A stretch of DNA of 64,000 bases from Fulvivirgaceae bacterium JP3-4 (GTDB lineage: Bacteria > Bacteroidota > Bacteroidia > Cytophagales > Cyclobacteriaceae), in contig JARKND010000004.1 in assembly GCA_029309925.1 (NCBI GenBank), positions 186,001 through 250,000 on the forward strand, in the 5' to 3' direction. Numbering within the stretch: position 1 is the stretch's first letter; every line of letters starts with the position of its first letter. The notes under the pieces were generated by a model, which made no database searches, was not told where the DNA came from, and saw only the letters and a list, made by a program, of their open reading frames with translations. The position numbers were made by a program, and so were the translations under genes. Shown here piece after piece: positions 13,181 through 61,721 of this stretch.

Positions 13181-13309
13181 TGTGTTAATGTGTTCGGGTG
13201 TTCATGTGCGCATGTTGAAGTGATTCAAATGATGCCTTCATAGCTCACGATGGAGTTCAATACATGAGCACATGAGCACATGAGCACATGACCACATGCA
13301 TACATGAGC
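13181..13309. repeat. Inverted-arm octamer array (locus A)
   Basis: The left arm is four drifting octamers of TGTGTTMA type at 13181-13212. The right arm is six octamers at 13262-13309 (ACATGAGC x3, ACATGACC, ACATGCAT, ACATGAGC). The right arm read on the minus strand is the same kind of word (GTGCTCAT), so the arms are inverted around a spacer of about 50 bases. The right arm ends five bases from the metF stop codon (13315). No gene lies between the arms. Confidence 0.8.
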
Positions 13310-13314
13310 ACCTC

Positions 13315-14271
13315 TCAAAACAACTCCTTGGCTATGCGATAAATCGGATCTGATTTACCCATGGAATAGAAGTGCAGCGTGGGCACGCCTTTCTTGACAA
13401 GCTCTTTCGACTGTTCGACAGCCCAGCGGATTCCTACTTCTTTTACTTCTTTGTTGTCTTTGCACTTTTCCACTTCATCTGCCAGGTCTTCCGGGATGTC
13501 GATGTGAAATGTGGTGGGCAGGATGTTGCACTGGGCCTTGGTCGTGATCGGCTTAATTCCTGGAATAATCGGAACGTTGATACCTGCCTCTTTGCACTTC
13601 TCGCAGAACTCGAAATATTTTTTGTTGTCGAAGAACATCTGCGTGACGATGTACTCGGCACCAAGGTCTACTTTCAGCTTGAGATACTTGAGGTCGGTCT
13701 TGATGTTCGGAGCCGCGAAATGTTTTTCGGGGTAGCCGGCAACACCGATGCAGAAATTTGTTGGTGAGCTGTTCTGCAATTCTTCATCGAGAAAGCGACC
13801 GTTGTTCATATTCACCACCTGTTGCAGCAGATCGGAGGCAAATTTGTGACCGTCAGGATCCGGTACAAAACGTCCTTCATTCTTGATTCCATCACCCTGT
13901 AACACCAGCACGTTATCAATGCCAAGGAAGTGCAGGTCAATTAAAGCATTCTCAGTTTCTTCTTTTGTAAAACCACCACAGATAATATGCGGCACCGTAT
14001 CAACATGGTAGTGGTTCTGTATCGCTGCGCAAATCCCGACAGTACCGGGACGCTTGCGCGTTGAACGCTTTTCAAGCAGTCCGTTTTCCTTCTTTTTATA
14101 CACGTACTCCTCGCGGTGATACGTCACATCGATAAACGGAGGTTTGAACTCCATCAGCGGATCGATGTTATCAAAAAGATTCTTGATGTTCTCGCCTTTC
14201 AGTGGCGGAAGAATCTCGATGGTAAAAAGTGTTTTGCCCTTCGCGTTCTTTATATGTTCAGTGACTTTCAT
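13315..14271 (-). CDS. metF: 5,10-methylenetetrahydrofolate reductase
   Basis: 318-aa FAD-dependent enzyme that makes 5-methyltetrahydrofolate, the methyl donor for MetH. The TIM-barrel protein begins MKVTEHIKNAKGKTLF, followed by EILPPLKGEN, the counterpart of the FEFFPP region. PHIICGGFTKEETE and LVLQGDG form the folate/FAD side, and QMFFDNKKYFEF and PGIKPITT are conserved late motifs. The start at ATG 14271 is clear. It lies downstream of the two metH genes with the four-helix-bundle gene in between, and completes the methionine-regeneration cluster. Confidence 0.96.
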   Translation of the reverse strand: MKVTEHIKNAKGKTLFTIEILPPLKGENIKNLFDNIDPLMEFKPPFIDVTYHREEYVYKKKENGLLEKRSTRKRPGTVGICAAIQNHYHVDTVPHIICGGFTKEETENALIDLHFLGIDNVLVLQGDGIKNEGRFVPDPDGHKFASDLLQQVVNMNNGRFLDEELQNSSPTNFCIGVAGYPEKHFAAPNIKTDLKYLKLKVDLGAEYIVTQMFFDNKKYFEFCEKCKEAGINVPIIPGIKPITTKAQCNILPTTFHIDIPEDLADEVEKCKDNKEVKEVGIRWAVEQSKELVKKGVPTLHFYSMGKSDPIYRIAKELF

Positions 14272-14277
14272 GTAAAA

Positions 14278-14358
14278 ATGTGTTCAGGGTGTTAATGTGT
14301 TAAGGTGCTCATGTGTTCAGGTGTTAATGTGTTAATGTGTTAATGTGTTAATGTGCTA
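14278..14358. repeat. Octamer array, left arm of locus B
   Basis: Ten consecutive units of the word ATGTGTTA and close variants (one unit is 9 nt) run from 14278 to 14358. The last unit is ATGTGCTA, and its CTA (14356-14358) is the complement of the TAG stop codon of the four-helix-bundle gene. The other edge is 6 bases from the metF ATG. With the inverted arm at 14794-14833 it frames the four-helix-bundle gene. Confidence 0.9.
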
Positions 14359-14721
14359 GTGTTTGTTGATGTATCTAACTAGACCTAGCGTAAGATTTTT
14401 TGCCTCCTCTGCTTTTGCTCGTAAACTTGCCTCTTCGTCCTTTGAAATATATCCTACGTCAGCGAGCGTGTAAAGCATACTTAACAATTCAAGCGCAGAG
14501 CTTTGCGAAAAATCATAGAAACGCAGCGAGTCTTTTTTATGAAATCTACCGAAACCCTCCGCGATGTTATTCATGGTACCCAACGCAGCCTTCTTAAATT
14601 GCGCACGCGTCTCGAAGTCCTTGGCAAGTTTGCCGTTCTCGGAAACCAAAAAAGCCTCCTTCACAAGTTGCCTCGCGGCCTGCCAACATTTTAAGTCTTC
14701 AAATCGATTAATCTTACTCAT
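14356..14721 (-). CDS. Four helix bundle protein (S23/IVP family)
   Basis: 121-aa protein of the four-helix-bundle family first seen in intervening sequences of 23S rRNA genes and structurally related to Avd of diversity-generating retroelements. Family marks are RFEDLKCWQAARQLV near the N-terminus, NNIAEGFGRFH in the middle and FYDFSQSSALELLSML. The biochemical role is unknown, and relatives are basic and thought to bind nucleic acid. Here the gene is not in an rRNA gene but inserted between metH and metF, framed by inverted arrays of an 8-bp word. Its stop codon belongs to the last octamer. It is probably a passenger element and not part of methionine metabolism. Confidence 0.93.
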   Translation of the reverse strand: MSKINRFEDLKCWQAARQLVKEAFLVSENGKLAKDFETRAQFKKAALGTMNNIAEGFGRFHKKDSLRFYDFSQSSALELLSMLYTLADVGYISKDEEASLRAKAEEAKNLTLGLVRYINKH

Positions 14722-14793
14722 AAAAATTGGATTTAAGTCAAACCATTCTTACAAGCATCTTTGTTTCAATAATTAAAATACGGCCAGCATCAA

Positions 14794-14833
14794 CACCTTA
14801 ACACATTAACACATTAACACATCAGCACATTTT
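14794..14833. repeat. Octamer array, right arm of locus B
   Basis: Five octamers: CACCTTAA, CACATTAA, CACATTAA, CACATCAG, CACATTTT. On the minus strand they read TTAATGTG, the word of the left arm, so the arms are inverted. The last unit reaches the first base of the stop codon of the metH C-terminal gene (14833-14835). The gap to the four-helix-bundle start is about 70 bases. Confidence 0.88.
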
Positions 14834-18601: not shown

Positions 18602-18917
18602 ATTATTTCGTAAACTATCCAGAGAGCCCCGGTTAAGATGGGATACTTATCTTTTCACAACTGAAAATTTCAGAAGCGTGGGATTTAGCACAACATTTCT
18701 GCTTTGCAGAAGAATAGGATGCTAAGACGTCAAAGGGCCCATTCCCTCGGTCTTTCTGGATAAGCATCGCAAAGAAAACAGATAGGGAGTCAAAAAGCAA
18801 ATTATCAGAAGAGCAAAGACAACATTGGGACAACCCTGGGAACAACCTTGCGTGACTATGAACACATCGAACGACAGCAGCGCATTGCCCGCCTGTGGTG
18901 CAAACACGAAACACAGA
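18602..18917. other. Intergenic region upstream of metH leader
   Basis: About 315 bases between the metH leader and the array at 18918. Open frames here are cysteine- and serine-rich and resemble no protein, so I treat it as non-coding. The metH promoter is expected in this stretch. I see no terminator for the minus-strand genes. Confidence 0.5.
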
Positions 18918-18973
18918 ACCGTGAACCTTAAACCTTAAACCTTAAACCTTGAACCTTGAACCTTGAGCCTTGA
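18918..18973. repeat. Heptamer array, single arm (locus C)
   Basis: Eight consecutive heptamers: ACCGTGA, ACCTTAA three times, ACCTTGA three times, GCCTTGA. The array ends eight bases from the stop codon of the gene at 18982. No inverted partner arm was found on the metH side. Confidence 0.9.
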
Positions 18974-28002: not shown

Positions 28003-31000
28003 ATGACACATTGTTTTATTGCAAAACAACGTACCCTTCTCGCTCTCAGCCTTTTGGCTGTCTGTTCACTTTTTTCGCTCGTAGCAAACGCCCAGACAAC
28101 CGTTGATTGCAGCATTGCAGCCAACTGTAGTAATGCAGCATGTAATTTTGCTGCCAATATTGAGCGCGGATGCCGATGCTTCGATGGACTGGACAACGAT
28201 GGCGATGGCAAAATCGACAAGGCCGACTCGAACTGCGCAGCTTACTACGGATTGACGTTCGTGGGTGAAGGCTCCAACTGTTCGATCGTCCCTCCGGGCA
28301 CTCCCGATCCATTTGACCTGGTCAACGCGCCAATTACCTCGGCCCAGAATACTGCAGATACACAATCAAAAGTAAGTGTAGGTGATATCGATGGTGATGG
28401 CATTCCCGATGCAGTCATTACATCAAAATGGAATTCTGAATTGAGGGTCATTGCGACCCGCTCTCCGCAGGCCGATGGTACTCAGGCAGGAAAAGTAAAA
28501 TCCGATTTTAACCTCTCAGGTGCGGTAGCCAACCAGATGTTCTCGGATGCTCCAAGTAGCGGACCATGTAAACCCAACCGCCTCTTGTTCGAGCACGAAA
28601 ACCTCATTGCTGATATCGATAAAGACGGCAAAGCCGAATTGTATGGTGTCGTAAGTAACCGTGGTGGTAACCCGGAAACACCTCCGACCTGTTTTTACCT
28701 CGTTGGTTTTAAATATGCCCCGGACGATCTCGTCCCGCTCTTCAAGGCTGTCTCCGTTGGCACCGATCGCCCGGGAACATTTGGCATCGCTGATATGGAT
28801 GGCGATGGCAAGGCTGAAATTTATCTGCGTGACCGGATATACGCTGCGGAAACCGGAGCGCTGCTTGCCTCCGCGGGTGGAGACTGGGACCTGGATGTGA
28901 CTTCTGCACCAGTGGCCGTTAACATTTCCGGAGACACAAAAATGGAATTGGTATGTGGTACCAAAATCTACAGCATTCCTTCGCTGGCCAATAGAAACCC
29001 TGCAACTCCGGCAGCCCTCACCCTGCTTCACGACATGAACACCATAGGCACAAACGATGCCTATGTCAAGCTGATGAATGACCCAGTAGAGTATGGAATT
29101 GATACGCACAGCTCATGCAGTGTTGCCGACATCGACCGCGATGGCAATGTTGATGTTGTAATCTCAGGAGCTTTGAATAGCGTGACAGGCCCAACGACTG
29201 TCTTTTACTGGAACGTTGTCAAGAATACCGTTTCAATCTTCTCTCCGCCAGACCCGACATATGCCAATGGATGGATCTGGGGAACCGGACGCGTTAACCT
29301 CGGTGATGCCAATGGAGATGGCAGAACTGATTTCTCATTCATCGCGGGAAGCAGACTCTGGTGTCTCACCACAGATGCAGCCGGAAATCTTGTTCCGCTT
29401 TGGGCCAATCCGCGTACGATCAACGATACGCGCTCTGGCGTCTTAACGGTTACCATTTACGACTTCAACAATGACGGTCACCCTGAAATGGTCTATCGCG
29501 ATTCGCAGATCCTTGCCGTGATTGACGGTGCTACAGGAACACAACTAAAGTGGTCATCGGTATGTCAGTCGCACACCTATACAGAAGGACCAATTATCGC
29601 TGACGTGAACGGTGATGGTGGCACAGATATCTGCGTGACCTGTAACACGAGTAACTCGTTTGATATCAATGACGGCTTGCAGCAACAGGCACTCGGGCAG
29701 TTCCGCCTTTACTATTCTGCTGCCAACGACTGGTTGCCAACGCGCAGAGTCTGGAATCAGCCTGGCTATTTTGTCGTGAATATCAAAGACAACCTTCAGC
29801 TTCCTTTCCCGCAGCTGGATCAGAACCTCATCTATTCAAATGCACCATGTCCTAACGGACTTCCTGGCCCGCAGATGCCAATGAACGTGTTCCTTAACCA
29901 GGTTCCTTATCTTAGTGCCAACGGATGTCCGGTCTTCCCGGCTCCTGACTTGTCATTTACCGGAGACGACCCGGCAAACCTTCCCTTCCCTCCGGGTGAC
30001 CCTCGAAATCAGCCAGCGGTTGAAGTGATCCCGCCTGTCTGCGGTAACCTTGGCATACAGGTAAGATTCCGGATCATCAACGATGGTGATCTTCCCTTGA
30101 CGCTGAACGTGCCGGTAAGTTTCTGGAAAGCGGATCCGACACTGGCATCGACAACGCAGGCGGATAAACTTTTCACAACCAATATTAACATCAGTAATCT
30201 TGCTGTCGATGGAACACTATTGACAGGATTCCAGTCATTCAATGGTACTGGAGGTACTTTCAGGCTTTATATTGTTTTGAACAACAGCGGTGCCACGTTG
30301 CCAATCAATCCGAACGCTTCATCAACCACCGAATGTCGTCTTGACAACAACATTTATAGCGTCAACATTGTGCCGGATCCTTTCGTAACAAAAATTGTAA
30401 AGATCCAGGACAACTTTAAGTGCGTTAACACTGCACCAAACACAGGCGAGTTGCGCGTTAGAATTTTCAAAGGTGGCGTTGAAGAAACCGACTACTCCCA
30501 ATACGGATTCCAGTGGTATACCGGAAACGCTTCCAACCCGGTTGCAATTCCTGGCGCTACAAATTATAATATTACAGGACTTGCCGAAGGCGACTACACT
30601 GCACTTGTCCGCAACGTTGTTAAAAATTGTACAGGTGTACTCGTTGACACTACCATTGTCAGAACCGGTGTCGATCCGGATGTGGTCATTACAGCAACGA
30701 ATCAAACATTGTGTAACCCGGCCAACGGTTCACTTACTGCAACAGTTCAGGGAGTCGGTGGAAATACCGGTTACACATTCCGCTGGTATGATCAAACGCT
30801 CCAGGATCTCGGGATCACTGGCTCTGTTGCAGCGAACATGGTTGCCGGTAACTACAAACTTATTGTAACAAAAGACGGATGCTCGAAGCAGTTTGACGCG
30901 CCACCAATTCTGCCTCCGAACAAACCTGACGCCCAGGCATCTGTGCTTCAGCATGTGGTTGATTGTATTAATCCAAACAGCGGATCGGTAACAGCAGACG

Positions 31001-34000
31001 CAGTATTTAACGCGGTTGTGCAGAATCCTGCTAATTACACTTTCACATGGTATTTCTATAACAACGCCACCGCTACCCGCGGAAGTGTTCTTCCGGCAGC
31101 CAATGGCACCGGACAAACCCGCACAGGCCTTGCCGCAGGTTTCTACCAGGTAACAATCCGTGACAACGCAACCCAGTGCGATGCGAACCAGGCTCCGATT
31201 GTCGAAGTAACCTCTCAAACGGTTCTTCCGACAGCCCTGATCACGAGAACACTCGATCAGACATCCTGTGATCCGACCAAACCCAATGGATCGCTCACTG
31301 CTTCCGCCACGGGTGGAACGCTCGTAAGCCCGAACGACTTCACTTTCGAATGGTTCAGAGGAGACAATACGCTTGCCGCGAATAAGATTCCAATCGCTGG
31401 AGGACCGGAAACTGTCTCCGGTGCAAAGGGAGAAATTCTGAACAACGCAAAAGGTGGTGGTATTGTGTACACTGTACGCGTGACTACGCCAAACAACTGT
31501 TCCGCTACGGAAAAGCTTACCGTGAATGAAGCGATTAACGTTCCGGTCCTGACGCTCACCGAACTTACACCGAATACAGTGTGTGATGTGACGAAGGCTA
31601 CCAACCCTTACAACGGTTCTATTCAGGCTACTGTAACCTTCGCAGGCAATAATGTTACACTGCCGGATCCGAACTACAGGTTCACATGGTATGATGGAAC
31701 TACGACAACAACATTACACAACCCGGCTCCTGCCAACCTTCAGAATCCGGTATTGAGCGGACTTCAGGACGGTAACTACGCAGCTACTGTTGAACGCACA
31801 GATCTCTTCTGCTTGTCAACACCGAAGACTGTTCCGGTGACGAGAGCAACGGTGCTCCCTATTTTGAGCGCAACCTCGACCGGATCAAACAATTGCGATC
31901 CTGCATTGACGCCTGACGGAACTGTTACGGTCTCTGTAACCAATACGGCAGCTGCTCCCGGACCATTCACGTATCAGTGGTATGCGGGCAACGCAGTTGG
32001 AGTGAATCCATTGGGCGCAGCCAATAACGGAACATCTGCGACCGCCATTAAAGTTGGCGGACCTGTTGGTGCTCCGAATCAATACACAGTTGAAGTACTT
32101 AACACGGCAACGGGCTGTGTCAATAATACCACGCAGTTTGTTGCCGATGTCAGTGTGGTTCCGGTGTTGTCATTTGCCAGCATCGTCCCGAACTCGATGT
32201 GTGATCCTACAAAGTTCAACGGAAGCCTCACTGCCCAGGTGGACAATATTCCCGCAGGCTACACGATCGGAGATTACGCGTTCCGCTGGTTTGATGGACA
32301 AACAACGGTTACGCTGCACGCACCTCCATCGGTTACAGCAACGCTTGCTCAACTTGATGCCGGCTTCTACACGGTTGATGCACGAAATACAAAGACAGGC
32401 TGTCAGTCAGCACCGATCTCGAACCAGGTTCCCAACGCGAAGATCTTTCCAGCGTTGCAGCCTGCGTCTACCGGATCTAACAACTGTGATCCATCGCTTA
32501 CTCCAGACGGAACAGTCAGCTACACGGTAACAAACATTCAGCCGGGCGATGTATTCATACAACAATGGTATGATGGTAACGCGGTTACTCCAGGTAATGA
32601 GTTGCCTGGCGGGAACAACGGAACTGCAGTCACCGCAATTAAACTTGGGGGCCCAGTAGGTGCTCCGAAACCATATACTGTTCTTGTAACAAATACGACA
32701 ACGGGTTGTACAAACTTCACAACCGCTGCGGTACCTGACATCAGCATCGTTCCGATCCTTTCCACGTCAGTAGTTGCGAACTCGATCTGTTCGCCAGCCT
32801 CTGCATTCAATGGAAGTTTTACTGCGAATGTCACGAACATCCCTGCGCTGTACACCATCGCAGATTACGACTTCACTTTCAGGAATGCTGCCAACGTAAT
32901 CATTCAGGCATCGAGCCCCGACAACTCACTCAGCAATGTGGATGCAGGAGCTTACAGTGTAATCGGAAGAAACAGACTAACCGGATGTACTTCAGCACCT
33001 GCAAGCAACAACGTGCCAAATGCAAAAGTTTTCCCTGACCTCACACCGAGCTCAACGGGCTCAACAAACTGTGTTAACGATCCGGGTAACGGAATCAATC
33101 CTGACGGAACGGCAACAGTTACAGTCGCGGTTACGCCAGGCCCTCACTCGTTCCAGTGGTATCTCGGAAGCGGTGATCCGATCGCCAATGCACTCACTCC
33201 AATCGCAGGCGCAACCAGCGCGACACGCGGTGGTCTTGGTGGACCAGTAGGTGCTCCAAATGCCTACACGGTTCTTGTAACGGATGTTCCTTCAGGATGT
33301 ACTTCATTCACCACAGCTTTCGTTGCTGACGCAAGTGTGATTCCTGTCCTGTCGTTCGGCCCGATCACACCGAATACGATCTGTAGCCCTGCAACTTCAT
33401 TTGATGGTTCGATGACCGTTCAGGTCGATAATATCGGTTCATTCGCGCTGACTGACTTTGCCTTCACATGGTTTGACGGAGATCAGGTTACTGATCCACA
33501 GCACGCGCCACAACCCGCTGCCGCAGTTGATCACTTATTGCCATTACTCGATGCAGCACAATACACGGTAAGAGCACGGAATACACTCACTGGTTGTATC
33601 TCCGCACCGATCACCGGTCAGGTTCCCGATGGAAAGATCAATCCGATTGTCGCTGTTACTACGACAGGTTCAACGAATTGTACGAACGGCCCCGGTATTA
33701 CACCTGACGGGACGGCAACTGCCACCATCACCAACAATGCGCTGGGCGATCCGATGTCGTTCGCATGGACAGCTGTGGCTCCTGCAACTGCATTAACACC
33801 AGCAAACAATCCTTCTGCTGCTACAGCGATTTTCCTCGGTGGACCAACCAATGCGCCTAACGCATACGATGTTGTTGTGACTAACACCCGCACCGGTTGC
33901 GTAGGAAACGGACAGGGTCTCGTTGCAGATCTGAGCTCGAAGCCAGTTCCGGTACTTGCGGCTTTCGATAACCATGTGTGTGATCCATTGTTGATAACAC

Positions 34001-40000: not shown

Positions 40001-42429
40001 GTGGTCCAGGACTCGGTTGTTCTTCGGCTCCATATAAAGTTGACATCGAAGACAGACGCCTCTTCCCTACTGTGAGCTTCGCATCACTTGCGAACTCCAG
40101 CTGTAATGTGGCGATGCCAAACGGTGCAGTAATTGCAACCGCTGCCGAGGCGAACGGAACAAACACCGGACCATACACATTTGCATGGACGTTGAATGGC
40201 GGTGCGCTTTCACCTGCCTCAACGGTTGTCACGCTCGGGGCGAACCAAAGCCGCGTCAATGATGCCCTGGATGGAAACTATGTCGTAACTGCTACGAACA
40301 CAGTAACAGGTTGTCCTTTCGATGCAAGCTTTGCGCTGAAGCTCGATCAGACCATGAGCACGCCAAACATCATCGAAGTGATCACAACAGATCCGTTGGA
40401 TTGTAATCCTTCCGCAAGCGCAGAGGTTACAAAGATTACGTTGGGTAGTACTTCGAATTCAGTATTGTTCCCTCCTAACATTCCGCCTAACAACGAAGTG
40501 ACAGGAGCAGCCCTGCTGAATTTTACATACAATTGGTACCAGGGCGGAACTGCTCCTGCAAATCAGTTACCGATGACGACTCCATGTATCGGTCCGAACT
40601 GTGCCACTCCGGTAGCGGGTGTTACTGCGGGCACGTACTTCGTCACGGTGCTTGACCCTCGCACGGATTGCGTATCCGGTCCGAAGCAAGTTGTAATCAA
40701 CGATGACGACATCATCTATCCGGACCTCGTGATCACGCAAACGAGACTTCAGGTGAGCTGTATCGGAGGCGTTGGAAGCGCAGAACTGCAGGCAACTGCT
40801 GACGGCTTCAACGACACGAACGCAAACTACGTGTTCAACTGGTTCCGAAACCTGGATGCAACACCGCCAAGCGCACAGACTGGCAGCACATTCTCGAATC
40901 TTGTTGCGGGCGATTATTCCGCAGAAGTTCTCGATCAGACTACAGGCTGTACCTCAGAAGCGCTGTACATCGTGCCGGATGATACGCCAAGGTTCCTGCC
41001 GCAAATCTCGTTGTCAACAGACCCACGCGTGAACTGTCTGGTGAATGATGGTGTGTTGCTGGCGCGTGAGATCGGGTTCAACCCAAACAGCGGTTATCCG
41101 TTCCCTTCAAATTACAGTGCTGAGCTGTACCCTGGCGCTAATCCGAACGTAGCGGTTCCAGGTGTTGCCATGCCAAACGAACCTGGCTTCCCGCGCAACT
41201 GGAGAACAACAGGTCTTGACATCGGAACGTATACAGTTAAGATCATCGACAACAATACGGGTTGTACAACCACCGATAACATTGACGTTGCCGATGGAAG
41301 AACTGCACCGGTTGTAGTGATCGTCCAGGAAAATCCGTTGATCAATTGCGATCCGCTGAGGCCAAATGGTCAGCTTGCAGCTACTGCAGATCAGGGACAG
41401 GTTGGTGGATATACCTTCGACTGGTTCCGCGGCCAGACCGTAAGCGGATCTTCAATCGAATCACAGAATATTCTGGTAGGTGAAACGATCGGGTCTTATA
41501 CCGTTCGCGTGACGAATAACATAACGGGATGTTTCAAGGACCAGGTTGGTCAGATCACCGATGGCCGTGTCGTTGCGCCAACTCCTACTCCTGAAGTCGT
41601 GATGCACCGCACACACTGCGTGATTCCTGATGGATGGGTAAAAGCTACGGTCGGAGGTATCACATTGAATTACTCCTTTGACTGGTGGGATGGTGAAACG
41701 GATGCCGGCTCACCTGACTTCAACGGAGTTGATTACCCAGGTCGCCCTGAAGGATTCTATACGGTGAAAGTAATGGACATTACTACTGGTTGTTACTCAC
41801 TTCCTGCAAGCATCGAAGTACTCGACCAGACCGAAATTCCTGAGCTCATCTTCACAACAACGGCTTCGTTCTGCGAAGATCTTCCTGACGGATTCACGAA
41901 GGGTAATGGTTCTGTACAAGTTGACATGAATCCTGCGTACCTGTTCACAGACTCAATCGCATGGACGAAAGTTGAGCCACCTGCAAGGCAGCGTCCTGAG
42001 CTGCAGGAATCGGAGCTGGTGCCCATCGAGCTTGCCGGAACAGGTGCATACGTAACGGATCTTTTCCCTGGCTTCTATAAGAGTGAAGTTACCACAGTGA
42101 AGGGTTGCAGGAACTGGGGTGTTACAGAAGTGAAGACAGAAATCCGAGCGTACAACCTGGTAACAAGAAACAGTGACGGAAAGAACGATGCGTTTGTGAT
42201 CGACTGTATCAGCAGATTCCCTAACAACAACGTGAAGATCTTCAACCGCGCTGGTGTGAAGGTTTATGAAGCCGATGGCTATGACAACAATGAAAAGGTA
42301 TTCCGCGGTCTAGGTGAGCGCGGAGTTTATACTACCGGTAACGACTTGCCAGTAGGTACTTACTTCTACATTATCGACAAACGTGACGGTTCTAAACCAA
42401 GAACTGGTTACCTTGAACTTGTGAAATGA
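28003..42429 (+). CDS. Giant SprB-like T9SS surface adhesin, 4808 aa
   Basis: One uninterrupted 14.4-kb frame. Signal peptide (~1-31, ending LVANAQ); a calcium-type loop CFDGLDNDGDGKIDKAD; FG-GAP/VCBS repeats (~125-550, seven DxDxDG loops); a CARDB-like region (~645-785); then about 38 SprB/Ig-like modules of ~100 residues (~806-4690). Each module starts with a Cys-x-x-x-NG or DG motif and ends in a GxYxVxVxxxxTGC pattern. The C-terminal ~95 residues (NSDGKNDAFVIDC onward) are a type B T9SS sorting domain. Relatives such as SprB of Flavobacterium move on the cell surface in gliding or act as adhesins. The PorP/SprF gene overlapping its stop is the expected secretion partner. Ligand unknown. 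Confidence 0.95.
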   Translation: MTHCFIAKQRTLLALSLLAVCSLFSLVANAQTTVDCSIAANCSNAACNFAANIERGCRCFDGLDNDGDGKIDKADSNCAAYYGLTFVGEGSNCSIVPPGTPDPFDLVNAPITSAQNTADTQSKVSVGDIDGDGIPDAVITSKWNSELRVIATRSPQADGTQAGKVKSDFNLSGAVANQMFSDAPSSGPCKPNRLLFEHENLIADIDKDGKAELYGVVSNRGGNPETPPTCFYLVGFKYAPDDLVPLFKAVSVGTDRPGTFGIADMDGDGKAEIYLRDRIYAAETGALLASAGGDWDLDVTSAPVAVNISGDTKMELVCGTKIYSIPSLANRNPATPAALTLLHDMNTIGTNDAYVKLMNDPVEYGIDTHSSCSVADIDRDGNVDVVISGALNSVTGPTTVFYWNVVKNTVSIFSPPDPTYANGWIWGTGRVNLGDANGDGRTDFSFIAGSRLWCLTTDAAGNLVPLWANPRTINDTRSGVLTVTIYDFNNDGHPEMVYRDSQILAVIDGATGTQLKWSSVCQSHTYTEGPIIADVNGDGGTDICVTCNTSNSFDINDGLQQQALGQFRLYYSAANDWLPTRRVWNQPGYFVVNIKDNLQLPFPQLDQNLIYSNAPCPNGLPGPQMPMNVFLNQVPYLSANGCPVFPAPDLSFTGDDPANLPFPPGDPRNQPAVEVIPPVCGNLGIQVRFRIINDGDLPLTLNVPVSFWKADPTLASTTQADKLFTTNINISNLAVDGTLLTGFQSFNGTGGTFRLYIVLNNSGATLPINPNASSTTECRLDNNIYSVNIVPDPFVTKIVKIQDNFKCVNTAPNTGELRVRIFKGGVEETDYSQYGFQWYTGNASNPVAIPGATNYNITGLAEGDYTALVRNVVKNCTGVLVDTTIVRTGVDPDVVITATNQTLCNPANGSLTATVQGVGGNTGYTFRWYDQTLQDLGITGSVAANMVAGNYKLIVTKDGCSKQFDAPPILPPNKPDAQASVLQHVVDCINPNSGSVTADAVFNAVVQNPANYTFTWYFYNNATATRGSVLPAANGTGQTRTGLAAGFYQVTIRDNATQCDANQAPIVEVTSQTVLPTALITRTLDQTSCDPTKPNGSLTASATGGTLVSPNDFTFEWFRGDNTLAANKIPIAGGPETVSGAKGEILNNAKGGGIVYTVRVTTPNNCSATEKLTVNEAINVPVLTLTELTPNTVCDVTKATNPYNGSIQATVTFAGNNVTLPDPNYRFTWYDGTTTTTLHNPAPANLQNPVLSGLQDGNYAATVERTDLFCLSTPKTVPVTRATVLPILSATSTGSNNCDPALTPDGTVTVSVTNTAAAPGPFTYQWYAGNAVGVNPLGAANNGTSATAIKVGGPVGAPNQYTVEVLNTATGCVNNTTQFVADVSVVPVLSFASIVPNSMCDPTKFNGSLTAQVDNIPAGYTIGDYAFRWFDGQTTVTLHAPPSVTATLAQLDAGFYTVDARNTKTGCQSAPISNQVPNAKIFPALQPASTGSNNCDPSLTPDGTVSYTVTNIQPGDVFIQQWYDGNAVTPGNELPGGNNGTAVTAIKLGGPVGAPKPYTVLVTNTTTGCTNFTTAAVPDISIVPILSTSVVANSICSPASAFNGSFTANVTNIPALYTIADYDFTFRNAANVIIQASSPDNSLSNVDAGAYSVIGRNRLTGCTSAPASNNVPNAKVFPDLTPSSTGSTNCVNDPGNGINPDGTATVTVAVTPGPHSFQWYLGSGDPIANALTPIAGATSATRGGLGGPVGAPNAYTVLVTDVPSGCTSFTTAFVADASVIPVLSFGPITPNTICSPATSFDGSMTVQVDNIGSFALTDFAFTWFDGDQVTDPQHAPQPAAAVDHLLPLLDAAQYTVRARNTLTGCISAPITGQVPDGKINPIVAVTTTGSTNCTNGPGITPDGTATATITNNALGDPMSFAWTAVAPATALTPANNPSAATAIFLGGPTNAPNAYDVVVTNTRTGCVGNGQGLVADLSSKPVPVLAAFDNHVCDPLLITQGPQNHDGHVDITAVNHNGGPIGPAGLTYEWRSVNAANVIGAAIGGQTSAVLPNRPAGKYAAIVSITALGCTSDPVIEEVLDDLTPPDITPAVTPNTNCPGGGINANGSAAVTLVDAVALPSVNYTIQWHTGAIVGAPIGGATNPVLSNQITGTETFTAEVTNRVTGCVSAEPMTVTDARVIPSVAVTVVQNNLNCTGTANGQLLATPANAGVNFTVTWAPAITVTGAGNINNTQLPAGAYSATVRNNDTGCVSPADGQNIIDQFTYPGIAVTITDQTSCSATPNGALAVTVAGGVTYEWFDGAGTALDPTPTVATTITGLASGDYTVRATIDATGCAATKTEFVPNTITYPVLTLTPSGATNCTNPNGQIAFSQTGLQSVTSYTLWVLDEVGNATTTNAAAIQIPGNIRATNTDPIPNLANLAPGYFTAMIRDENTKCNSQPVSTFIARPNFPTITINSIAAGSSCGVGSTGGIDATVAGGAAPYTFRWYNAAPSNNNITFIADPPTPANPPNMGVNPVIQSTEDLVNVATGVYTLVVVDNAGCGNYDVKSVPALNAPNITVTKTDNTQCSPGQNGTITVTVAGTPATPYGITLFDGNDPLTAVLESGPVNGIQNVNTVFNGLLHDEYLVKIDDGGSPACPIYRSVQLAQVAFNPVVQTQVLSPNTSCDPNLAADGEVRITVSSNPDPTNAANAASADFEITSINPLPLGAFVPGMNLGTGGSADITGFKPLAYAIVVTDLYTGCQTNAAVNVPDVQDVPDAIAATPTPETMCAIGSNGSALASVANVVTADLDQFDFTWARNNDLTLPVYTAAGDGANTQGELLNQAHATANTPGNFWPMGAAGQGSGARTFFVQGVKNATAPSGVGCKTGIVQVVIPDQHVTPDITLTPFFDSFCIANAGNNLIGDGKITVVPDADAATPGQQGGNFNYSWTPVPLASAAPPVNSNAASFDIIQLHDGTYTVTVTNNANLCSVQNTTTISPAPYVLTIDNALVTDQRVCNNDGRIEVTQIRLTDNSVGSPASATDNTAALIDARYSFQWYNNAALTAGTELEDAIAPDDITLKVLGHDADGDFAPEEDDYGLMQAGTYYVVATRTNNTLPGFGCPTLPFRVDVQDVHNNPVPNLTVLSNTSCLPAGPGEGEIHINVTDATGGPFLPGGGFTYTYTWNGPTQPGAPNAVPGNGNGNGNSADGDDDEYVQLLDSTTPYDVRITNDQTGCFTNAIATIVKNATPVFVQNVTVADEILCSPTGDGSITVTRVTLNDRTGASQDFVPAPAGPQGNISDFNFEWQRVGNPFTQLTAGTTLNNANYDTDPAPGGFGNVIGAGTYRVTARRATGAPGAGCPSAPFEVVIKDLRVNPVVSLTPFANTSCATLPGDMEGEIEVRVADATTALGATGFTYNWTTTPLLTPIAAGAGDGDGDGLDGDDDHPTSLADGGYTVSVRSDKSGCTGIGTTTILKNTTPIFIQDVAVLNQILCGPDGQLTIASITLNDRNGNTQTFNTGSTPNISDFEFTWTRPGIAGSQLTAGTVLNAGNYNAANFAGTAFGFGSYTVTATRNSGGPGNGCSSAPYNVQILDRRVFPVVTLTPFANTSCSIIPAQFEGEIEIRVTDASPAVGPAGFDYTWNAGTGTALVSNNPANDGDGSGLDGDDDHPTGLREGTYNLSVVSNKSGCPATAQTEIFKNSTPVFTQLVTPTDQVLCAADGRLIVNEVRVIDRDQNVQSSNTDFPITDFEFTYSRTTVANTIPGVTGTQLNVTNFPTIGADTYFVVPRRIAGGPGRDCVSPPYKVDIQNKALFPVVSLTPFANTSCDPNFFEGEIEVRVTDNSVNLPAPLTGAPFNYAYNWTTSATPGVINGPVAGTHDGDGSSADGDGDHPLALEDGAYTIQVRNTQTNCISTGSTTIFRNSTPVFTQLVTPVHQVLCNPDGSLTVNEVKVIDRDGNIESNVNGDFPLADFTFSYDRTTIGNTIPGVTASTLNNTNYAAIGFDTYYVVATRVAGGPGLGCSSAPYKVDIEDRRLFPTVSFASLANSSCNVAMPNGAVIATAAEANGTNTGPYTFAWTLNGGALSPASTVVTLGANQSRVNDALDGNYVVTATNTVTGCPFDASFALKLDQTMSTPNIIEVITTDPLDCNPSASAEVTKITLGSTSNSVLFPPNIPPNNEVTGAALLNFTYNWYQGGTAPANQLPMTTPCIGPNCATPVAGVTAGTYFVTVLDPRTDCVSGPKQVVINDDDIIYPDLVITQTRLQVSCIGGVGSAELQATADGFNDTNANYVFNWFRNLDATPPSAQTGSTFSNLVAGDYSAEVLDQTTGCTSEALYIVPDDTPRFLPQISLSTDPRVNCLVNDGVLLAREIGFNPNSGYPFPSNYSAELYPGANPNVAVPGVAMPNEPGFPRNWRTTGLDIGTYTVKIIDNNTGCTTTDNIDVADGRTAPVVVIVQENPLINCDPLRPNGQLAATADQGQVGGYTFDWFRGQTVSGSSIESQNILVGETIGSYTVRVTNNITGCFKDQVGQITDGRVVAPTPTPEVVMHRTHCVIPDGWVKATVGGITLNYSFDWWDGETDAGSPDFNGVDYPGRPEGFYTVKVMDITTGCYSLPASIEVLDQTEIPELIFTTTASFCEDLPDGFTKGNGSVQVDMNPAYLFTDSIAWTKVEPPARQRPELQESELVPIELAGTGAYVTDLFPGFYKSEVTTVKGCRNWGVTEVKTEIRAYNLVTRNSDGKNDAFVIDCISRFPNNNVKIFNRAGVKVYEADGYDNNEKVFRGLGERGVYTTGNDLPVGTYFYIIDKRDGSKPRTGYLELVK
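31890..34260 (+). repeat. Two-module superrepeat, ~590 bp period, in giant adhesin
   Basis: Within the adhesin, modules beginning NCDPALTPDG (~31.89 kb), NCDPSLTPDG (~32.48 kb), NCVNDPGNGINPDG (~33.07 kb) and NCTNGPGITPDG (~33.67 kb) recur every ~590 bases. Each carries a GGPVGAPN-type segment and alternates with a CDPTKFNGS- or CSPATSFDG-type module. About four copies are seen. Confidence 0.75.
37380..40080 (+). repeat. Two-module superrepeat, ~670 bp period, in giant adhesin
   Basis: The segment SLTPFANTSC and its variants recur at about 37.38, 38.09, 38.76, 39.41 and 40.08 kb, so the period is about 650-710 bases. One module of each pair carries an acidic DGDG...DGDDDHP insert; the other has VTLNDRxGNxQ and GGPGxGCxSAPY features. 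Four copies plus an end unit are visible, more alike than the rest of the protein. Confidence 0.78.
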
Positions 42430-44192: not shown

Positions 44193-44232
44193 AATCAACG
44201 TATCAACCAATCAACGTATCAACGATTCAACG
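44193..44232. repeat. Octamer array, single arm (locus D)
   Basis: Five consecutive octamers: AATCAACG, TATCAACC, AATCAACG, TATCAACG, ATTCAACG. The array ends three bases before the stop codon of ppk1 (44236). No inverted partner was found near the PLDc_N gene. Confidence 0.9.
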
Positions 44233-49879: not shown

Positions 49880-49903
49880 GGGAGCTGACGAGAGGAAAAA
49901 TTC

Positions 49904-50215
49904 CAATGATCAATGATCAAATAACAAAGAATACCAGATTAGCCCTACGGACAGACTGATCACGATAGGACTTTCATGTCCTCTACGTGAGAGAAAATTT
50001 CAATGATCAATGATCAAAAAACAAAGAATACAAGATTAGCCCTACGGACAGACTGATCACGATAGGACTTTCATGTCCTCTACTTGAGAGAAAATTCCAA
50101 TGATCAATGATCAAAAAACAAAGAATACAAGATTAGCCCTACGAACAGACTGATCACGACTTTCATGTCCTCTACATCAGAGAAAATTTCAATGATCAAT
50201 GATCAAAAAACAAAT
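49904..50215. repeat. Tandem ~97-bp direct repeat, 3 units plus partial (locus E, left)
   Basis: CAATGATCAATGATCAA recurs at 49904, 50001, 50098 and 50190, giving units of 97, 97 and 92 bases (a 5-base deletion in the third) and a truncated fourth. Each full unit also has a hairpin AGGAC-tttcat-GTCCT. The core word is a 7-mer (CAATGAT). The array follows the LRR stop by 24 bases. Confidence 0.92.
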
Positions 50216-50265: not shown

Positions 50266-50401
50266 TGATCATTGATTATAGGTTATTTCAGCACGCTCTT
50301 CCACGTACACGCCTCCCTTTGTGATTTGATCATTGATTATTGATTATTTTAACCCGCTCTACCTGTTATCCTACCCTATCTGATAATTGATTATTCATGA
50401 A
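50266..50401. repeat. Heptamer arms inverted to the 97-bp repeats (locus E, right)
   Basis: Heptamer runs TGATCAT-TGATTAT (50266-50279), TGATCAT-TGATTAT-TGATTAT (50327-50347) and TGATAAT-TGATTAT-TCATGAA (50381-50401). On the minus strand they read ATAATCA/ATGATCA, matching the CAATGAT word of the left side, so they are inverted arms. The stretch 49880-50462 contains no gene. Confidence 0.8.
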
Positions 50402-50963: not shown

Positions 50964-51096
50964 AGCTAGAAGCTGCAAGGTTCAAGCTGCAAGTCCGCGC
51001 GTGCAGCCTATCTTTCTGAGCCACGGACATAATCTTCGAACAGAATAATGCATCGCAGAATCATGTATGACGGTCACAGGCTTGCAGCTTGAAGCC
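50964..51096. repeat. Inverted heptamer arms (locus F)
   Basis: The left arm 50964-50998 is five heptamers (AGCTAGA, AGCTGCA, AGGTTCA, AGCTGCA, AGTCCGC). The right arm 51079-51096 is GGCTTGC, AGCTTGA, AGCC. TTCAAGCTGCAAG (50981-50993) is perfectly inverted at 51081-51093. The left arm starts 3 bases after the stop of the NTF2-like gene, and the right arm ends 2 bases before the stop of the CoA-binding gene. Confidence 0.9.
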
Positions 51097-53470: not shown

Positions 53471-53613
53471 GCAGTAGGCAGTTGGCAATTGGCAATAGGC
53501 AATTGGTTACGTGGTATTTTACTATTCATCCGAAGCTGTTGAAAACCTCAAACGTGGAGAATAATTGTAACACCAAACTAATTGCCTACTGCATTTCGCC
53601 TACTGCCTACTTT
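53471..53613. repeat. Inverted heptamer arms (locus G)
   Basis: The left arm 53471-53505 is five heptamers: GCAGTAG, GCAGTTG, GCAATTG, GCAATAG, GCAATTG. The right arm 53579-53613 is TAATTGC, CTACTGC, ATTTCGC, CTACTGC, CTACTTT, i.e. the reverse complement words. The left arm starts 4 bases after the M61 peptidase stop, and the right arm contains the stop codon and last codons of the FAD oxidoreductase. Confidence 0.92.
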
Positions 53614-58073: not shown

Positions 58074-58081
58074 TAAATTTG
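58074..58081 (+). promoter_or_regulatory. Predicted -7 box for acyl-CoA dehydrogenase
   Basis: TAAATTTG is a perfect TAnnTTTG box 29 bases before ATG 58111. TTTG at 58056-58059 could be the -33 element, but the spacing (14) is short. The 57-base gap must also hold the promoter of the divergent tryptophan dioxygenase gene. Confidence 0.42.
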
Positions 58082-58110
58082 CCCGAAGATAATTGAATAA
58101 TCAAAATACT

Positions 58111-59331: not shown

Positions 59332-59352
59332 TCCCAGCGATCAAGCTTGTCG

Positions 59353-59391
59353 AAATAAAAAATCCCACTTCTACAGCGGGATTCTTTATTT
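59353..59391. terminator. Bidirectional rho-independent terminator
   Basis: AAATAAA-A-AATCCC (59353-59366) pairs with GGGATT-C-TTTATTT (59378-59391): 13 of 14 positions pair, with T-runs on both strands. It lies 22 bases after the acyl-CoA dehydrogenase stop and can also serve the convergent DUF1573 gene. Confidence 0.88.
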
Positions 59392-59426
59392 CCTAATTCT
59401 TTTTCCTTCTTCCCTTTTCCTCCCAA

Positions 59427-59447
59427 TGCCTAATGACTAGTGACTAG
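59427..59447. repeat. Short heptamer array (locus I)
   Basis: Three heptamers TGCCTAA, TGACTAG, TGACTAG end eight bases before the stop codon of the DUF1573 gene (59456). Its minus-strand continuation (GACTAATTGAGGAACTAG) suggests more degenerate units reaching into the stop. The weakest member of the set. Confidence 0.6.
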
Positions 59448-59455
59448 TTCCTCAA

Positions 59456-60532
59456 TTAGTCAACATACGCAGTAAATGTCACCCGCTGCACCGGATTCTT
59501 CGGATCATCAGAATAGATTGTCACAGCCTTTGTATGCGTGCCACTTCTGTCGGGGGCAGCAAAAGCTATCTTAACCGTTGTGTTGTCACCTGGCTTAAGT
59601 TTCGTCTTCGCTGCACTTGCAGTAATACATGTACAATTTCCCTGGATCGACTTCAGGTGAAGCTCTTTCTTTCCGGTGTTGGTGATCGTTACATCTTTCA
59701 CAACTGTGGCATTTGATTTCAGTTTTCCAAAATCAAAAGAGTAATCGGCTAAACGCATTTGTGGAGCTTTGGCAAGCTCTTCGGCAGACATGTCGCCAAA
59801 GTAGTCCTCCAACGTGGCATATACCGAGAATGACTTTACAGCATTGGTCTCATCGTCCGTGTGCAGCTCCACGTTGTCTGACTGGAAACCATACTGGTTT
59901 TTCAATTTACCGTTGTAGCTGATCCGGACTTTTCCCTTTCCTCCTGCCGGAATCACCTTCGGCTCGGTTTCAACCTTGATGTATTTCGGAGAGACGTATG
60001 TACCTGTGAATGTCAGTGGCTTTGAGCCTGCATTCATGATGGCGAAATCGCGAACAACATATTCATCCTTAATGAGCACTTTGCCCATGTTGAAAGATGA
60101 ACTCTTCAGGCGCAGGTTTCCATTGGCAACTGAAAAATCCGACTCATTAGGTTTTGCATCAGTGGTCACCTGTCCTTTGATCTGGAGCATGATTGGATTC
60201 GGCTCAAAGTCGGTGGTGACTGTTAGCGACTTGTTAAAATATCCCGGGCGTCCCTTAGGGTTATAGCTCGCCTGTATAAACCCGGTTTTTCCGGGCTGAA
60301 CGATTTCCTTTGTCCAGTCAGGTGTTGTGCAGCCACAGGAAGCCTGAACGGTGAGTATCTTAACAGGCCGGTTGCTGTTGTTTGTGAAGACAAACTCGTG
60401 CGTTACGGGCCCTCCATCTTCGGCAATCATTCCAAAATCAAAAACCTCCTCTTTGAACTGCAGCGTTTTGGCCTGCTGCGCGAATACTGTAGATGAAAGG
60501 ATGAGAAACAATAAAGAAAAAGCCTTGTTCAT
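59456..60532 (-). CDS. DUF1573 domain protein, exported
   Basis: 358-aa exported protein from ATG 60532 (MNKAFSLLFLILSSTVFAQ signal peptide). It has three Ig-like/MSP-like beta domains. The first and last carry cysteine motifs typical of DUF1573 (ASCGCTTPDW near residue 65 and GNCTCITASA near 305), each followed by PGKTGFI- or PGDNTTV-type strands. The middle domain lacks the cysteines. DUF1573 proteins are common in the Bacteroidota periplasm, with no defined activity. It diverges from trpS and converges with the acyl-CoA dehydrogenase gene. Confidence 0.88.
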   Translation of the reverse strand: MNKAFSLLFLILSSTVFAQQAKTLQFKEEVFDFGMIAEDGGPVTHEFVFTNNSNRPVKILTVQASCGCTTPDWTKEIVQPGKTGFIQASYNPKGRPGYFNKSLTVTTDFEPNPIMLQIKGQVTTDAKPNESDFSVANGNLRLKSSSFNMGKVLIKDEYVVRDFAIMNAGSKPLTFTGTYVSPKYIKVETEPKVIPAGGKGKVRISYNGKLKNQYGFQSDNVELHTDDETNAVKSFSVYATLEDYFGDMSAEELAKAPQMRLADYSFDFGKLKSNATVVKDVTITNTGKKELHLKSIQGNCTCITASAAKTKLKPGDNTTVKIAFAAPDRSGTHTKAVTIYSDDPKNPVQRVTFTAYVD

Positions 60533-60633
60533 GATTTCGAGAAATAATTTGGAACACAAAATTAACGAAAACTTGCTTCAATTAATTTCCGTCTGGCTGC
60601 CAAATCGCTTCAATTTCTTTTCTTTGTATCCTT

Positions 60634-61605
60634 ATGGCGAGAATTTTAACCGGAATCCAGAGTAGCGGGAAGCCTCATTTGGGAAACCTCCTGGGTGCGA
60701 TCATTCCAGCAATCGAGCTGTCAAAACAACCTGGCAACGATTCATTCTTTTTCATTGCTGATCTGCATTCGCTCACAACAATCAAGGATGCAAAGCTGAG
60801 AACCGACAACGTGCGCGCGGTCGCAGCTGCCTGGCTGGCCTTCGGGTTCGATATTGAAAAAAATTATCTCTACCGTCAGTCGCGCATTCCTGAAGTTTGC
60901 GAGCTTACCTGGTATCTCAACTGTTTCACACCTTTCCCGATGCTCGCAAACGCTCACTCGTTTAAAGACAAGTCGGAAAAACTTTCGGATGTGAATGCCG
61001 GTCTGTTCACCTACCCGGTTTTGATGACAGCCGATATCATCCTCTATGATGCGAATTTTGTTCCCGTAGGAAAGGACCAGCGGCAGCACCTTGAAATAGC
61101 ACGCGACATTGCAACCGCATTCAATAATCAGTACGGAGAGACGTTTGTCGTACCGGAGGCCAAGATATCCGAAGAGGTGATGACTATCCCGGGCACTGAC
61201 GGGCAAAAGATGAGCAAGTCGTACGGCAACATCATCGATATTTTCCTTCCCGAAAAAGAGCTGCGCAAGCAGGTGATGTCAATCGTCACCGACAGCACAC
61301 CGATGGAAGCACCGAAAGATCCGGACAAAGACAACGTCTACGCGATCTACAGCTTACTCGGCAGTCAGGAAGAGAACAATCAATTACGCGCTAAATATCT
61401 TGCAGGAAATTTCGGCTACGGTCATGCAAAGCAGGAGCTATACGAACTGATCCTAAGAAAATTCAAAACGCAGCGCGAAGCATTTGCATTCTATTACGGC
61501 AATCCGGCCGAACTTGACAAAAAACTCGAGCAAGGCGAAGCGAAAGCAAGGGTGATTGCGAATGAAGTGTTGGGGAGAGTGCGGCAGAAAATCGGCTACC
61601 GGTAA
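60634..61605 (+). CDS. trpS: Tryptophanyl-tRNA synthetase
   Basis: 323-aa class I aminoacyl-tRNA synthetase charging tRNA-Trp. The HIGH-type motif is PHLGN in SSGKPHLGNLLGAI (~residues 10-20). The KMSKS loop is GQKMSKSYGN near residue 190. Tryptophan-pocket features include FTYPVLMTADIILYDANFVPVGKDQRQH. Length and motifs fit the short bacterial TrpRS. The start at ATG 60634 is clear. It is close to the tryptophan dioxygenase and HPPD genes, but on its own transcription unit. Inverted heptamer arms follow its stop by 2 bases. Confidence 0.97.
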   Translation: MARILTGIQSSGKPHLGNLLGAIIPAIELSKQPGNDSFFFIADLHSLTTIKDAKLRTDNVRAVAAAWLAFGFDIEKNYLYRQSRIPEVCELTWYLNCFTPFPMLANAHSFKDKSEKLSDVNAGLFTYPVLMTADIILYDANFVPVGKDQRQHLEIARDIATAFNNQYGETFVVPEAKISEEVMTIPGTDGQKMSKSYGNIIDIFLPEKELRKQVMSIVTDSTPMEAPKDPDKDNVYAIYSLLGSQEENNQLRAKYLAGNFGYGHAKQELYELILRKFKTQREAFAFYYGNPAELDKKLEQGEAKARVIANEVLGRVRQKIGYR

Positions 61606-61607
61606 AA

Positions 61608-61721
61608 AGGCTTAAAGCTGCACGCTACAAGCTGCAAGTCTGGGTATCAAATATTCAAATGTACTCCACAGAATTCCAGTGCAAAAGGCTTGAAGCTTGT
61701 AGCCTGAAACTTGCAGCCCGG
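61608..61721. repeat. Inverted heptamer arms (locus H)
   Basis: The left arm 61608-61642 is AGGCTTA, AAGCTGC, ACGCTAC, AAGCTGC, AAGTCTG. The right arm 61687-61721 is GGCTTGA, AGCTTGT, AGCCTGA, AACTTGC, AGCCCGG. GCTACAAGCTGCAAG (61624-61638) is inverted at 61689-61703 with one mismatch. The left arm starts 2 bases after the trpS stop; the right arm ends 13 bases before the stop of the next gene. The words are close to those of locus F, so F and H may be one family. Confidence 0.9.

Follow-up and report, generated by a model that had tools for sequence, protein, structure and literature searches.

Word-specific tandem arrays at the gene ends of a Fulvivirgaceae genome are tied to S23p/IVP genes and are probably arms of a small selfish element class

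In cyanobacteria, the short tandemly repeated repetitive sequences (STRRs) are dispersed intergenic tandem 7-mers that change in length by 7 nt and occur patchily. Repetitive extragenic palindromic (REP) sequences are short dispersed intergenic repeats, often in inverted pairs, that are tied to one coding copy, the REP-associated tyrosine (RAYT, Y1) transposase. Passages of MacGregor (2015, PMC4679880) describe TAACTGA heptamers in Beggiatoaceae, cyanobacteria and Bacteroidetes as one word that lies mostly in direct orientation before start codons. The intervening sequence (IVS) of the Coxiella 23S rRNA is presented in parts of PMC4990558 as a selfish element of 428 nt that carries an S23p open reading frame (ORF), forms a stem from inverted repeats and has, ahead of the start codon, tandem heptamers whose number differs among strains; the same parts call the Coxiella and Leptospira IVSs with an S23p ORF selfish or remnants of transposition. 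We analysed a stretch of 64,000 nucleotides from Fulvivirgaceae bacterium JP3-4 (G000:C4:186001-250000, hereafter the window; the host genome, G000, has 5.81 Mb), in which tandem arrays of short words lie at nine loci, A to I. These arrays probably form the arms of small selfish elements, a class based on the 23S rRNA intervening-sequence protein (S23p/IVP, PF05635) that also includes ORF-less arrays scattered in trans. The class itself is real; its arrays are dispersed, their words are specific, and they are linked to IVP. The selfish-element label is well supported.

A full element consists of a word array, an IVP gene and the same word array inverted. At locus B, two inverted ATGTGTTA arrays enclose a PF05635 gene. 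An earlier, sequence-only reading of the window had recognised these arrays and missed the enclosed IVP gene that explains the class. Like the 23S rRNA IVS, locus B holds an S23p ORF between inverted repeats, but it lies between metF and metH and not within a 23S rRNA gene. Window arrays were located by Tandem Repeats Finder and a direct scan, and inverted pairs were scored against the 95% level of shuffled sequence. The features are as follows, with the strand given where one was assigned.

13180-13215, + strand: locus A left arm, ATGTGTTA-type octamers without an IVP gene (inverted score 18.5, shuffled 95% level 10.5).
13262-13311, - strand: locus A right arm, beside the metF stop at 13315 (array scan).
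14277-14362, + strand: locus B metF-side arm, ATGTGTTA octamers, spanning the IVP stop codon (the scans gave 14277-14355 and 14289-14362).
14356-14721, - strand: IVP/S23p gene inside locus B, 121 aa, four-helix bundle (PF05635, TIGR02436, structure model).
14788-14830, - strand: locus B metH-side arm, ATGTGTTA inverted, 2 bp from the metH stop (inverted score 30.5, shuffled 95% level 11.0).
18902-18973: locus C single array, AACCTTA/AACCTTG, the word of IVP locus L012 by eye (period 7 score 42.5, no inverted partner).
44194-44232: locus D single array, ATCAACGT (period 8/16), 3 bp from the polyphosphate kinase stop (array scan, gene annotation).
49904-50214: locus E left arm, CAATGAT inside 97-bp tandem units, the word of IVP locus L018 (array scan).
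50317-50348: locus E right arm (inverted score 21.0, shuffled 95% level 11.0).
50970-50993: locus F left arm, AGCTGCA, the word of IVP locus L010 (inverted score 13.0, shuffled 95% level 8.5).
51081-51093: locus F right arm, 5 bp from the stop at 51099 (array scan).
53471-53516: locus G left arm, GGCAATT, the word of IVP locus L011 (inverted score 19.0, shuffled 95% level 7.5).
53568-53611: locus G right arm, supplying the last residues and the stop of a FAD-dependent gene (array scan, gene reading).
59422-59448: locus H single array, TGACTAG, 7 bp from the stop of a DUF1573 gene, the word of IVP locus L013 (period 7 score 12.5, no inverted partner).
61609-61641: locus I left arm, AGCTGCA-type, 3 bp past the stop at 61605 (inverted score 15.5, shuffled 95% level 9.0).
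61686-61718: locus I right arm (array scan).

The period-7/8 runs that the sequence-only reading had listed were present at all nine loci. Inverted arm pairs exceeded the shuffled 95% level at six of them (A, B, E, F, G and I), and an inverted partner arm was absent at C, D and H, where scores of 5.0, 5.0 and 6.0 stood against shuffled levels of 6.5, 7.5 and 8.0. The two inverted arms formerly assigned to F, G and H were therefore borne out at F (13.0 vs 8.5) and G (19.0 vs 7.5), while H (6.0 vs 8.0) has one arm. Distances from array to stop codon, taken from the listed ORFs, were 3-8 bp at A, 2 bp at B (the metH end), 8 at C, 3 at D, 24 at E, 9 and 5 at F, 4 at G, 7 at H and 3 at I, so that the edges do lie near stop codons at most loci, as had been stated (2-9 bp, except 24 bp at E). 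Six words of IVP genes in G000, read by eye, are words of window loci: ATGTGTTA (A, B), AGCTGCA (F, I), AACCTTG (C), GGCAATT (G), TGACTAG (H) and CAATGAT (E). This link to IVP genes backs the unity of the class, which had earlier been inferred.

The locus B IVP matched PF05635 with 84.8 bits (cut-off 33.8; E 5.6e-24, profile search) and TIGR02436, 'four helix bundle protein', with 71.5 bits (cut-off 24); it had no PADLOC match. Its structure model (pLDDT 96.5) matched the S23p structures 2gsc (E 8.9e-6) and 2rld (E 6.5e-4) and, more weakly, the Avd structures 4dwl and 8ub7 (E 0.03-0.06). The S23p protein of Xanthomonas is a homopentamer, according to a passage of PMC4990558. The nearest named relatives of the locus B protein are Cyclobacteriaceae, Flammeovirgaceae and Chryseolinea records, which, together with the PorP/SprF gene of the window, point to a Bacteroidota host. 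Judged by substitution ratios, IVP proteins are under purifying selection: among 26 usable of 42 pairs, the median ratio of nonsynonymous to synonymous substitution rates (dN/dS) was 0.07 and all values were below 0.5.

Twelve PF05635 matches were found in G000, 10 of them above the cut-off, and all 12 genes have inverted arms above the shuffled 95% level, the weakest being L012 (12.5 vs 10.5). Read by eye, the words mostly differ among the 12. PF05635 was present in 32 of 39 relatives and in 116 of 148 sampled Bacteroidota genomes, which makes these four-helix-bundle proteins abundant in Bacteroidota without a known role. Tandem runs with a score of at least 10 occurred in 76 of 136 IVP flanks compared with 6 of 134 shuffled ones (68 of 71 loci scored; the counts are low because a small number of long frames were wrongly accepted), and in 109 of 156 flanks compared with 7 shuffled ones at named loci (78 scored of 80). 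Among the named loci are some from Chloroflexi, Planctomycetes, Verrucomicrobia, Deltaproteobacteria, Elusimicrobia and Acidobacteria (Holophagales), and their best periods are 7, 8 or 9. A profile search returned 186 IVP ORFs in 176 of 178 loci, a number that includes the same loci fetched twice and reduces to 172 distinct proteins. Inverted arms flanked 143 of the 186 ORFs (shuffled 8) and 134 of the 172 distinct proteins (shuffled 11). Confident arm periods among the 172 were 8 (65), 7 (60), 9 (5) and 6 (2), compared with three of 186 in the shuffled control, one each at 7, 8 and 10.

IVP genes also occur on plasmids. Nine of 25 plasmid records were read, and a run with a score of at least 10 lay upstream in all nine and downstream in six, counts taken without a shuffle control. 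Seven of the nine IVPs are cyanobacterial and stand beside heptamer or octamer runs, and therefore STRRs may be the same phenomenon as the IVP arrays; the distinctness from STRRs that the sequence-only reading had proposed finds no support in these seven genes. On two cyanobacterial plasmids, L337 (Picosynechococcus) and L334 (Pseudanabaena), S23p genes with arms lie within CRISPR clusters, in the orders cas10-S23p-cmr3 and cas6-S23p-cas4. A plasmid of Azospirillum lipoferum 4B carries an IVP within a 23S rRNA gene (L338, 1201-1518; Rfam large-subunit match) with period-7 inverted arms; the record has no feature annotated at this position.

Beyond the window, we sampled G000 in 60 spaced 20-kb stretches (1.2 of 5.81 Mb), in which a simple gene caller of our own gave 835 genes and 698 gaps, with rough starts and exact stops. 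Intergenic sequence held 98 arrays of period 7 and 10 of period 8, against a mean of 0.0 each over five shuffles, and coding sequence held none at either period, so the excess over shuffled sequence predicted earlier was found. Among other periods, 4-6 and 9-13 gave 0-2 arrays each, multiples of 7 and 8 gave 59 (period 14), 34 (21), 4 (16) and 8 (24), sums of the two gave 6 (15) and 3 (22), and each remaining period gave at most one. When array blocks were placed at random within the same gaps, 25.4 of 109 stop-side edges were expected within 10 bp of a stop codon and 50 were observed, a number reached in none of 5000 simulations, which upholds the earlier claim of enrichment near stops. Start-side edges showed no enrichment within 10 bp of a start (10 of 77, 10.4 expected). 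Arrays with a score of at least 10 lay in 93 of the 698 gaps (24 of 98 convergent, 61 of 484 tandem and 8 of 116 divergent), and arms overlapped gene ends at 13 stop sides and 3 start sides. The idea of a replicating repeat that targets gene ends has good support.

Every IVP subfamily uses a word of its own, 7, 8 or 9 bp long. Between genomes, the word cosine rises with IVP identity, from 0.04 below an identity of 0.4 through 0.24 at 0.5-0.6 to 0.62 above 0.8, and of 146 within-genome IVP pairs with identities under 0.6, none has a common word at the 0.3 level. Over five genomes with 39 IVPs, word likeness correlated with IVP identity at r 0.57, which none of 1000 within-genome permutations reached. 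Elsewhere in the genome the same words also stand at many gene ends, as single arrays or as inverted pairs around unrelated DNA, and these ORF-less words are linked to the resident IVPs. Matching was done by exact 10-mers against foreign IVP sets; a k-mer cosine was rejected, shuffled arrays having matched in 89 of 154 cases. With two IVP gaps set aside, the sample held 148 ORF-less arrays, and 91 of them had a 10-mer in common with the arms of the 12 IVPs of G000, compared with a mean of 16.5 and a maximum of 42 for foreign sets of 12 IVPs (500 draws).

The GTGTT word of the window illustrates this tie. The GTGTTNANGTGTTNANGTGTT pattern had hits in six of 60 family genomes (G000 52, G017 26, G018 107, G019 9, G194 6 and G205 69) and none in the other 54, and a reversed control gave 3 hits, in G010. 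A search with alignment A1 of the window IVP subfamily gave 170-228 bits in exactly these six genomes; the next-best score, 136 bits, came from G184, which has no GTGTT array. Among the listed hits the spelling varies by genome, being mostly GTGTT(A/C)A(T/G) in G000, GTGTTTA(A/G) in G017 and GTGTT(A/G)A(A/G) in G018, and in G019 and G194 hits away from metH are limited to one site each. An IVP stands beside metH in six of the 60 genomes (G000, G194, G205, G019, G017 and G018), with GTGTT-type arms that differ in spelling where they were read. Close relatives, G185 among them, have a 47-bp metH gap without an IVP. Of 30 metH loci read on a single strand, 12 lacked a frame, 4 had an incorrect frame and one ran into the contig end. 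The 13 readable ones comprise three with an IVP, one with decayed arms and one, the metH-metF gap of G016, with a GxxExxY gene between repeat-rich arms. In the metH-metF gap of G007 (L147), degraded GTGTT-like arms stand at both gap ends without an IVP ORF, which looks like a decayed element.

Neighbouring arrays in the G000 sample form 30 inverted pairs, one of which is the IVP element L015, and 17 direct pairs, with spacers of 11-550 bp. At selected ATGTGTT loci, the word points inward from both sides in 10 of 10 close pairs. A comparison of 34 spacers gave one 12-bp match between spacers and no IVP remnant by profile search; of five weak matches of 12-21 bp to IVP interiors, the best falls in a spacer that itself holds array words. 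Spacers that are unrelated and free of IVP remnants indicate that the dispersed unit is the array rather than the whole element.

Whole elements are present or absent between close species, and both arms change in a matched way between species. Among three close species, an IVP with both arms occupies one junction in G064 and G092 and is missing in G137. At a second junction, the IVP of G092 (489-bp gap) corresponds to a 46-bp gap in G064 and to a short array of another word in G137, and at a third, G137 has a different IVP (57% identity) with a different word (group V). This presence and absence at the same junctions supports gain or loss as a unit. Two matched changes separate the elements of group VI, whose IVPs share 97-98% identity: left arms have GTGATTTAG or GAGATTAAG, and right arms have CTAAATCAC or CTTAATCTC. 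Another gap, flanked by sequence of 93-95% identity, has arms with a different word in each of the three species, and in every case the word recurs inverted in the partner arm. The ORF-less arrays of the three close species were compared in 4, 5 and 5 array-bearing gaps, which serve as examples and not as rates. Where IVP identity is below 0.8, an element's own two arms are closer to each other than the same arm is across species (15.6 vs 11.1; 14 of 17 independent pairs, p 0.005). In 48 elements the order of units in one arm mirrors that in the other more than permutation would give (p 5.6e-4), and 10 of the 48 reach 0.05 singly. Separately, a hairpin-like GTCATTTCGA...TCGAAATGAC sequence in the inter-arm spacer of G137 (L362-L363 join, L376 region) appears to be a further dispersed repeat.

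How the array copies arise we infer as follows. The IVP, an Avd-like pentamer subunit by its fold with no other Pfam domain, would bind its own word array and would recognise it as DNA rather than as an RNA stem. It would help host replication or repair enzymes to copy arrays into gene ends, by template switching or strand invasion, and selection would leave mainly the copies beside stop codons. The 23S rRNA IVSs would be members that landed in rDNA and are trimmed there by RNase III. Read as IVP sense-strand RNA, the mismatches in arm-arm duplexes comprise 129 G.U and 130 A.C, and therefore give no indication that RNA pairing is selected for. The simplest reading left is a protein ring that reads the word and aids host enzymes in copying arrays as DNA. 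In its boldest form, which we put forward tentatively, each IVP ring reads one word of 7-9 bp and has it written in trans at gene ends genome-wide without an enzyme of its own, in inverted pairs around unrelated host DNA, with both arms rewritten and dialects for each genome, and STRRs, TAACTGA repeats and rRNA IVSs belong to the same system. Writing in trans is the bold part of this proposal, and it is favoured by the word matches to resident IVPs and by the co-occurrence of GTGTT word and IVP in six genomes.

Several observations weigh against an IVP-based element that writes its word. The more distant outgroup G103 has both IVPs that differ among G064, G092 and G137, and therefore loss is as likely as gain; the comparison of syntenic gaps that the sequence-only reading had suggested thus yielded whole elements present or absent and left the direction even. 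No movement was observed, and no target duplication was resolved, the arms reaching the gene ends. Over all 29 independent pairs an element's own arms are not closer (14.8 vs 17.2, p 0.70), because close relatives still share arms. At the threshold used, 43 of the 186 IVP ORFs lack inverted arms, 57 of the 148 ORF-less arrays have no 10-mer in common with a resident IVP, and no IVP with the locus D word was recognised among the 12 IVP genes of G000. Only four of the six GTGTT genomes contributed to alignment A1, and G018 and G019 were outside it. Direct neighbour pairs (17 against 30 inverted) are also common, and over all words the inverted pairs do not keep the strand rule of IVP genes, with the G strand inward in 12 and the C strand inward in 10. 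The IVP could be a passenger.

In the first alternative, which makes the IVP a profiting passenger, fold-back template switching at palindromes during replication both makes the arms and keeps them alike. The unrelated DNA in the spacers of ORF-less pairs, the mirrored unit order and the matched arm changes between species all agree with such a process, but it leaves unexplained why the word is tied to the IVP subfamily and why ORF-less arrays match resident IVPs in trans, and we regard it as unlikely.

Placement at gene ends could instead reflect a host 3'-end device, as the sequence-only reading had suggested, in which hairpins or stop suppliers end or stabilise transcripts and guard against read-through. 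Hugging is restricted to the stop side, convergent gaps are richer in arrays, and arms close all frames inward in 150 of 415 segments compared with 85 outward and 69 in shuffled sequence, one arm possibly counting twice. Against this stand the IVP genes inside the arms, the absence of the GTGTT word from 54 of 60 family genomes, the lack of a G.U bias in the arms and the position of elements inside operons, e.g. metH-metF and cas10-cmr3. We give such a device little credence; ending frames or supplying a stop codon is at most a side effect, and the inward closure does not indicate a purpose. Stop-hugging may rather be tolerance, aided by stop codons brought in the arms, because DNA ahead of start codons carries signals. 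At locus G, the arm encodes the end residues of the FAD-dependent protein. Of 30 loci of relatives read on a single strand, 14 yielded no reading frame and one an incorrect frame; none of the 15 readable ends has these residues, and the counterpart of this gene in G194 has an AGCTNCA-type run after its stop.

Very improbable, in our judgement, is an RNA-level element that is kept for its stem, like the rRNA IVS, and spread via a reverse transcriptase, as the likeness to Avd might suggest. The fold match to Avd (4dwl and 8ub7, E 0.03-0.06) and the excision of the Coxiella IVS by RNase III, reported in a passage of PMC4990558, fit this idea. The elements share with the diversity-generating retroelements a related four-helix fold (Avd; passages of PMC10053308), but neither a reverse transcriptase nor a template/variable repeat pair was observed with them. 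The arms show no G.U excess (129 vs 130 A.C), and among the four of the six GTGTT genomes that were searched, RVT_1 gave one weak match below the cut-off in G000 and none in G017, G018 and G019, which hold 26, 107 and 9 GTGTT hits.

Movement by a transposase, in the manner of REP/RAYT sequences or of miniature inverted-repeat transposable elements (MITEs), would account for dispersed inverted pairs, and Y1_Tnp occurs in 31 of 39 relatives; of the 5 Y1_Tnp copies in G000, one has an array where its stop codon lies. In contrast to REP/RAYT, the element codes for IVP only, without an HUH transposase, its tandem 7-9 bp words vary with the protein subfamily, and five of the eight relatives that lack Y1_Tnp have IVPs. 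Unlike those of MITEs, the inner sequences of the copies are unrelated, the 34 spacers sharing nothing beyond the 12-bp match and holding no IVP remnant by profile search. We consider movement of this kind highly improbable. As a side observation, G015:C1 holds more than 20 near-identical Y1_Tnp copies. Neutral slippage of tandem repeats fits one gap in which the arrays of G064 and G137 differ in length by 21 bp, exactly three units, but as the sole cause it has a negligible chance and is contradicted by an excess confined to periods 7, 8 and multiples and by the recurrence of the same words in inverted pairs and with IVP genes.

Set beside the described systems, the IVP-based elements differ from the known IVSs, which sit in 23S rRNA, in lying between protein genes, in being many per genome with periods of 7, 8 or 9, and in having subfamily-specific words and ORF-less arrays in trans. 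The Coxiella IVS ORF is decaying, as stated in a passage of PMC4990558, whereas the present IVPs are held by purifying selection. The 23S rRNA IVSs look like members of the IVP element class that sit in rDNA. With the STRR and TAACTGA repeats, the G000 arrays have in common that they are dispersed intergenic tandem 7-mers (the 98 period-7 arrays of the sample), and 7-nt length changes and a patchy occurrence (PMC4679880) are likewise shared. In contrast to TAACTGA, the arrays here have many words, are often inverted, lie at stop rather than start codons and are tied to IVP. The terms '23S rRNA', 'four helix' and 'intervening' are absent from the main text of PMC4679880, and S23p is not named in the passages used here. 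In the parts of the literature covered, mainly open and with few subscription papers or bioRxiv preprints, we found no paper linking intergenic heptamer arrays to S23p.

The IVP elements join three puzzles that are treated apart in the literature we found: intergenic heptamer repeats, S23p proteins and the origin of 23S rRNA intervening sequences. The question of S23p function becomes a direct one, namely whether each protein binds its own word. The joint rewriting of both DNA arms next to genes that change slowly calls for a copying process undescribed for such elements in that literature. Intervening sequences with S23p were already known from rRNA; the writing of words in trans would, if true, be categorically new.

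Similar arms also surround another small gene. Among PDDEXK_3 (GxxExxY) genes (L200-L229), inverted repeat-rich arms were found in 14 of 22 loci read (of 30), compared with 2 in shuffled sequence. These loci resemble the IVP elements in having a small gene between inverted repeat-rich arms; the protein belongs to a different fold family, and the repeats are less regular and have other periods than IVP arms. The GxxExxY genes are possibly a sister element with a predicted nuclease, and word-like arms may therefore not be confined to IVP.

Three further observations concern G000 alone. The CAATGAT arm of locus E recurs in each unit of an array-bearing minisatellite, a 97-bp unit in 3.3 tandem copies at window positions 49897-50214. 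At about 7600-8450 of the sampled stretch L090, seven AGCTNCA arrays follow each other in one orientation, about 120-150 bp apart. Window positions 28003-42429 form a single open frame, whose product of 4808 aa is probably secreted and very large; a PorP/SprF gene follows at 42.4 kb.

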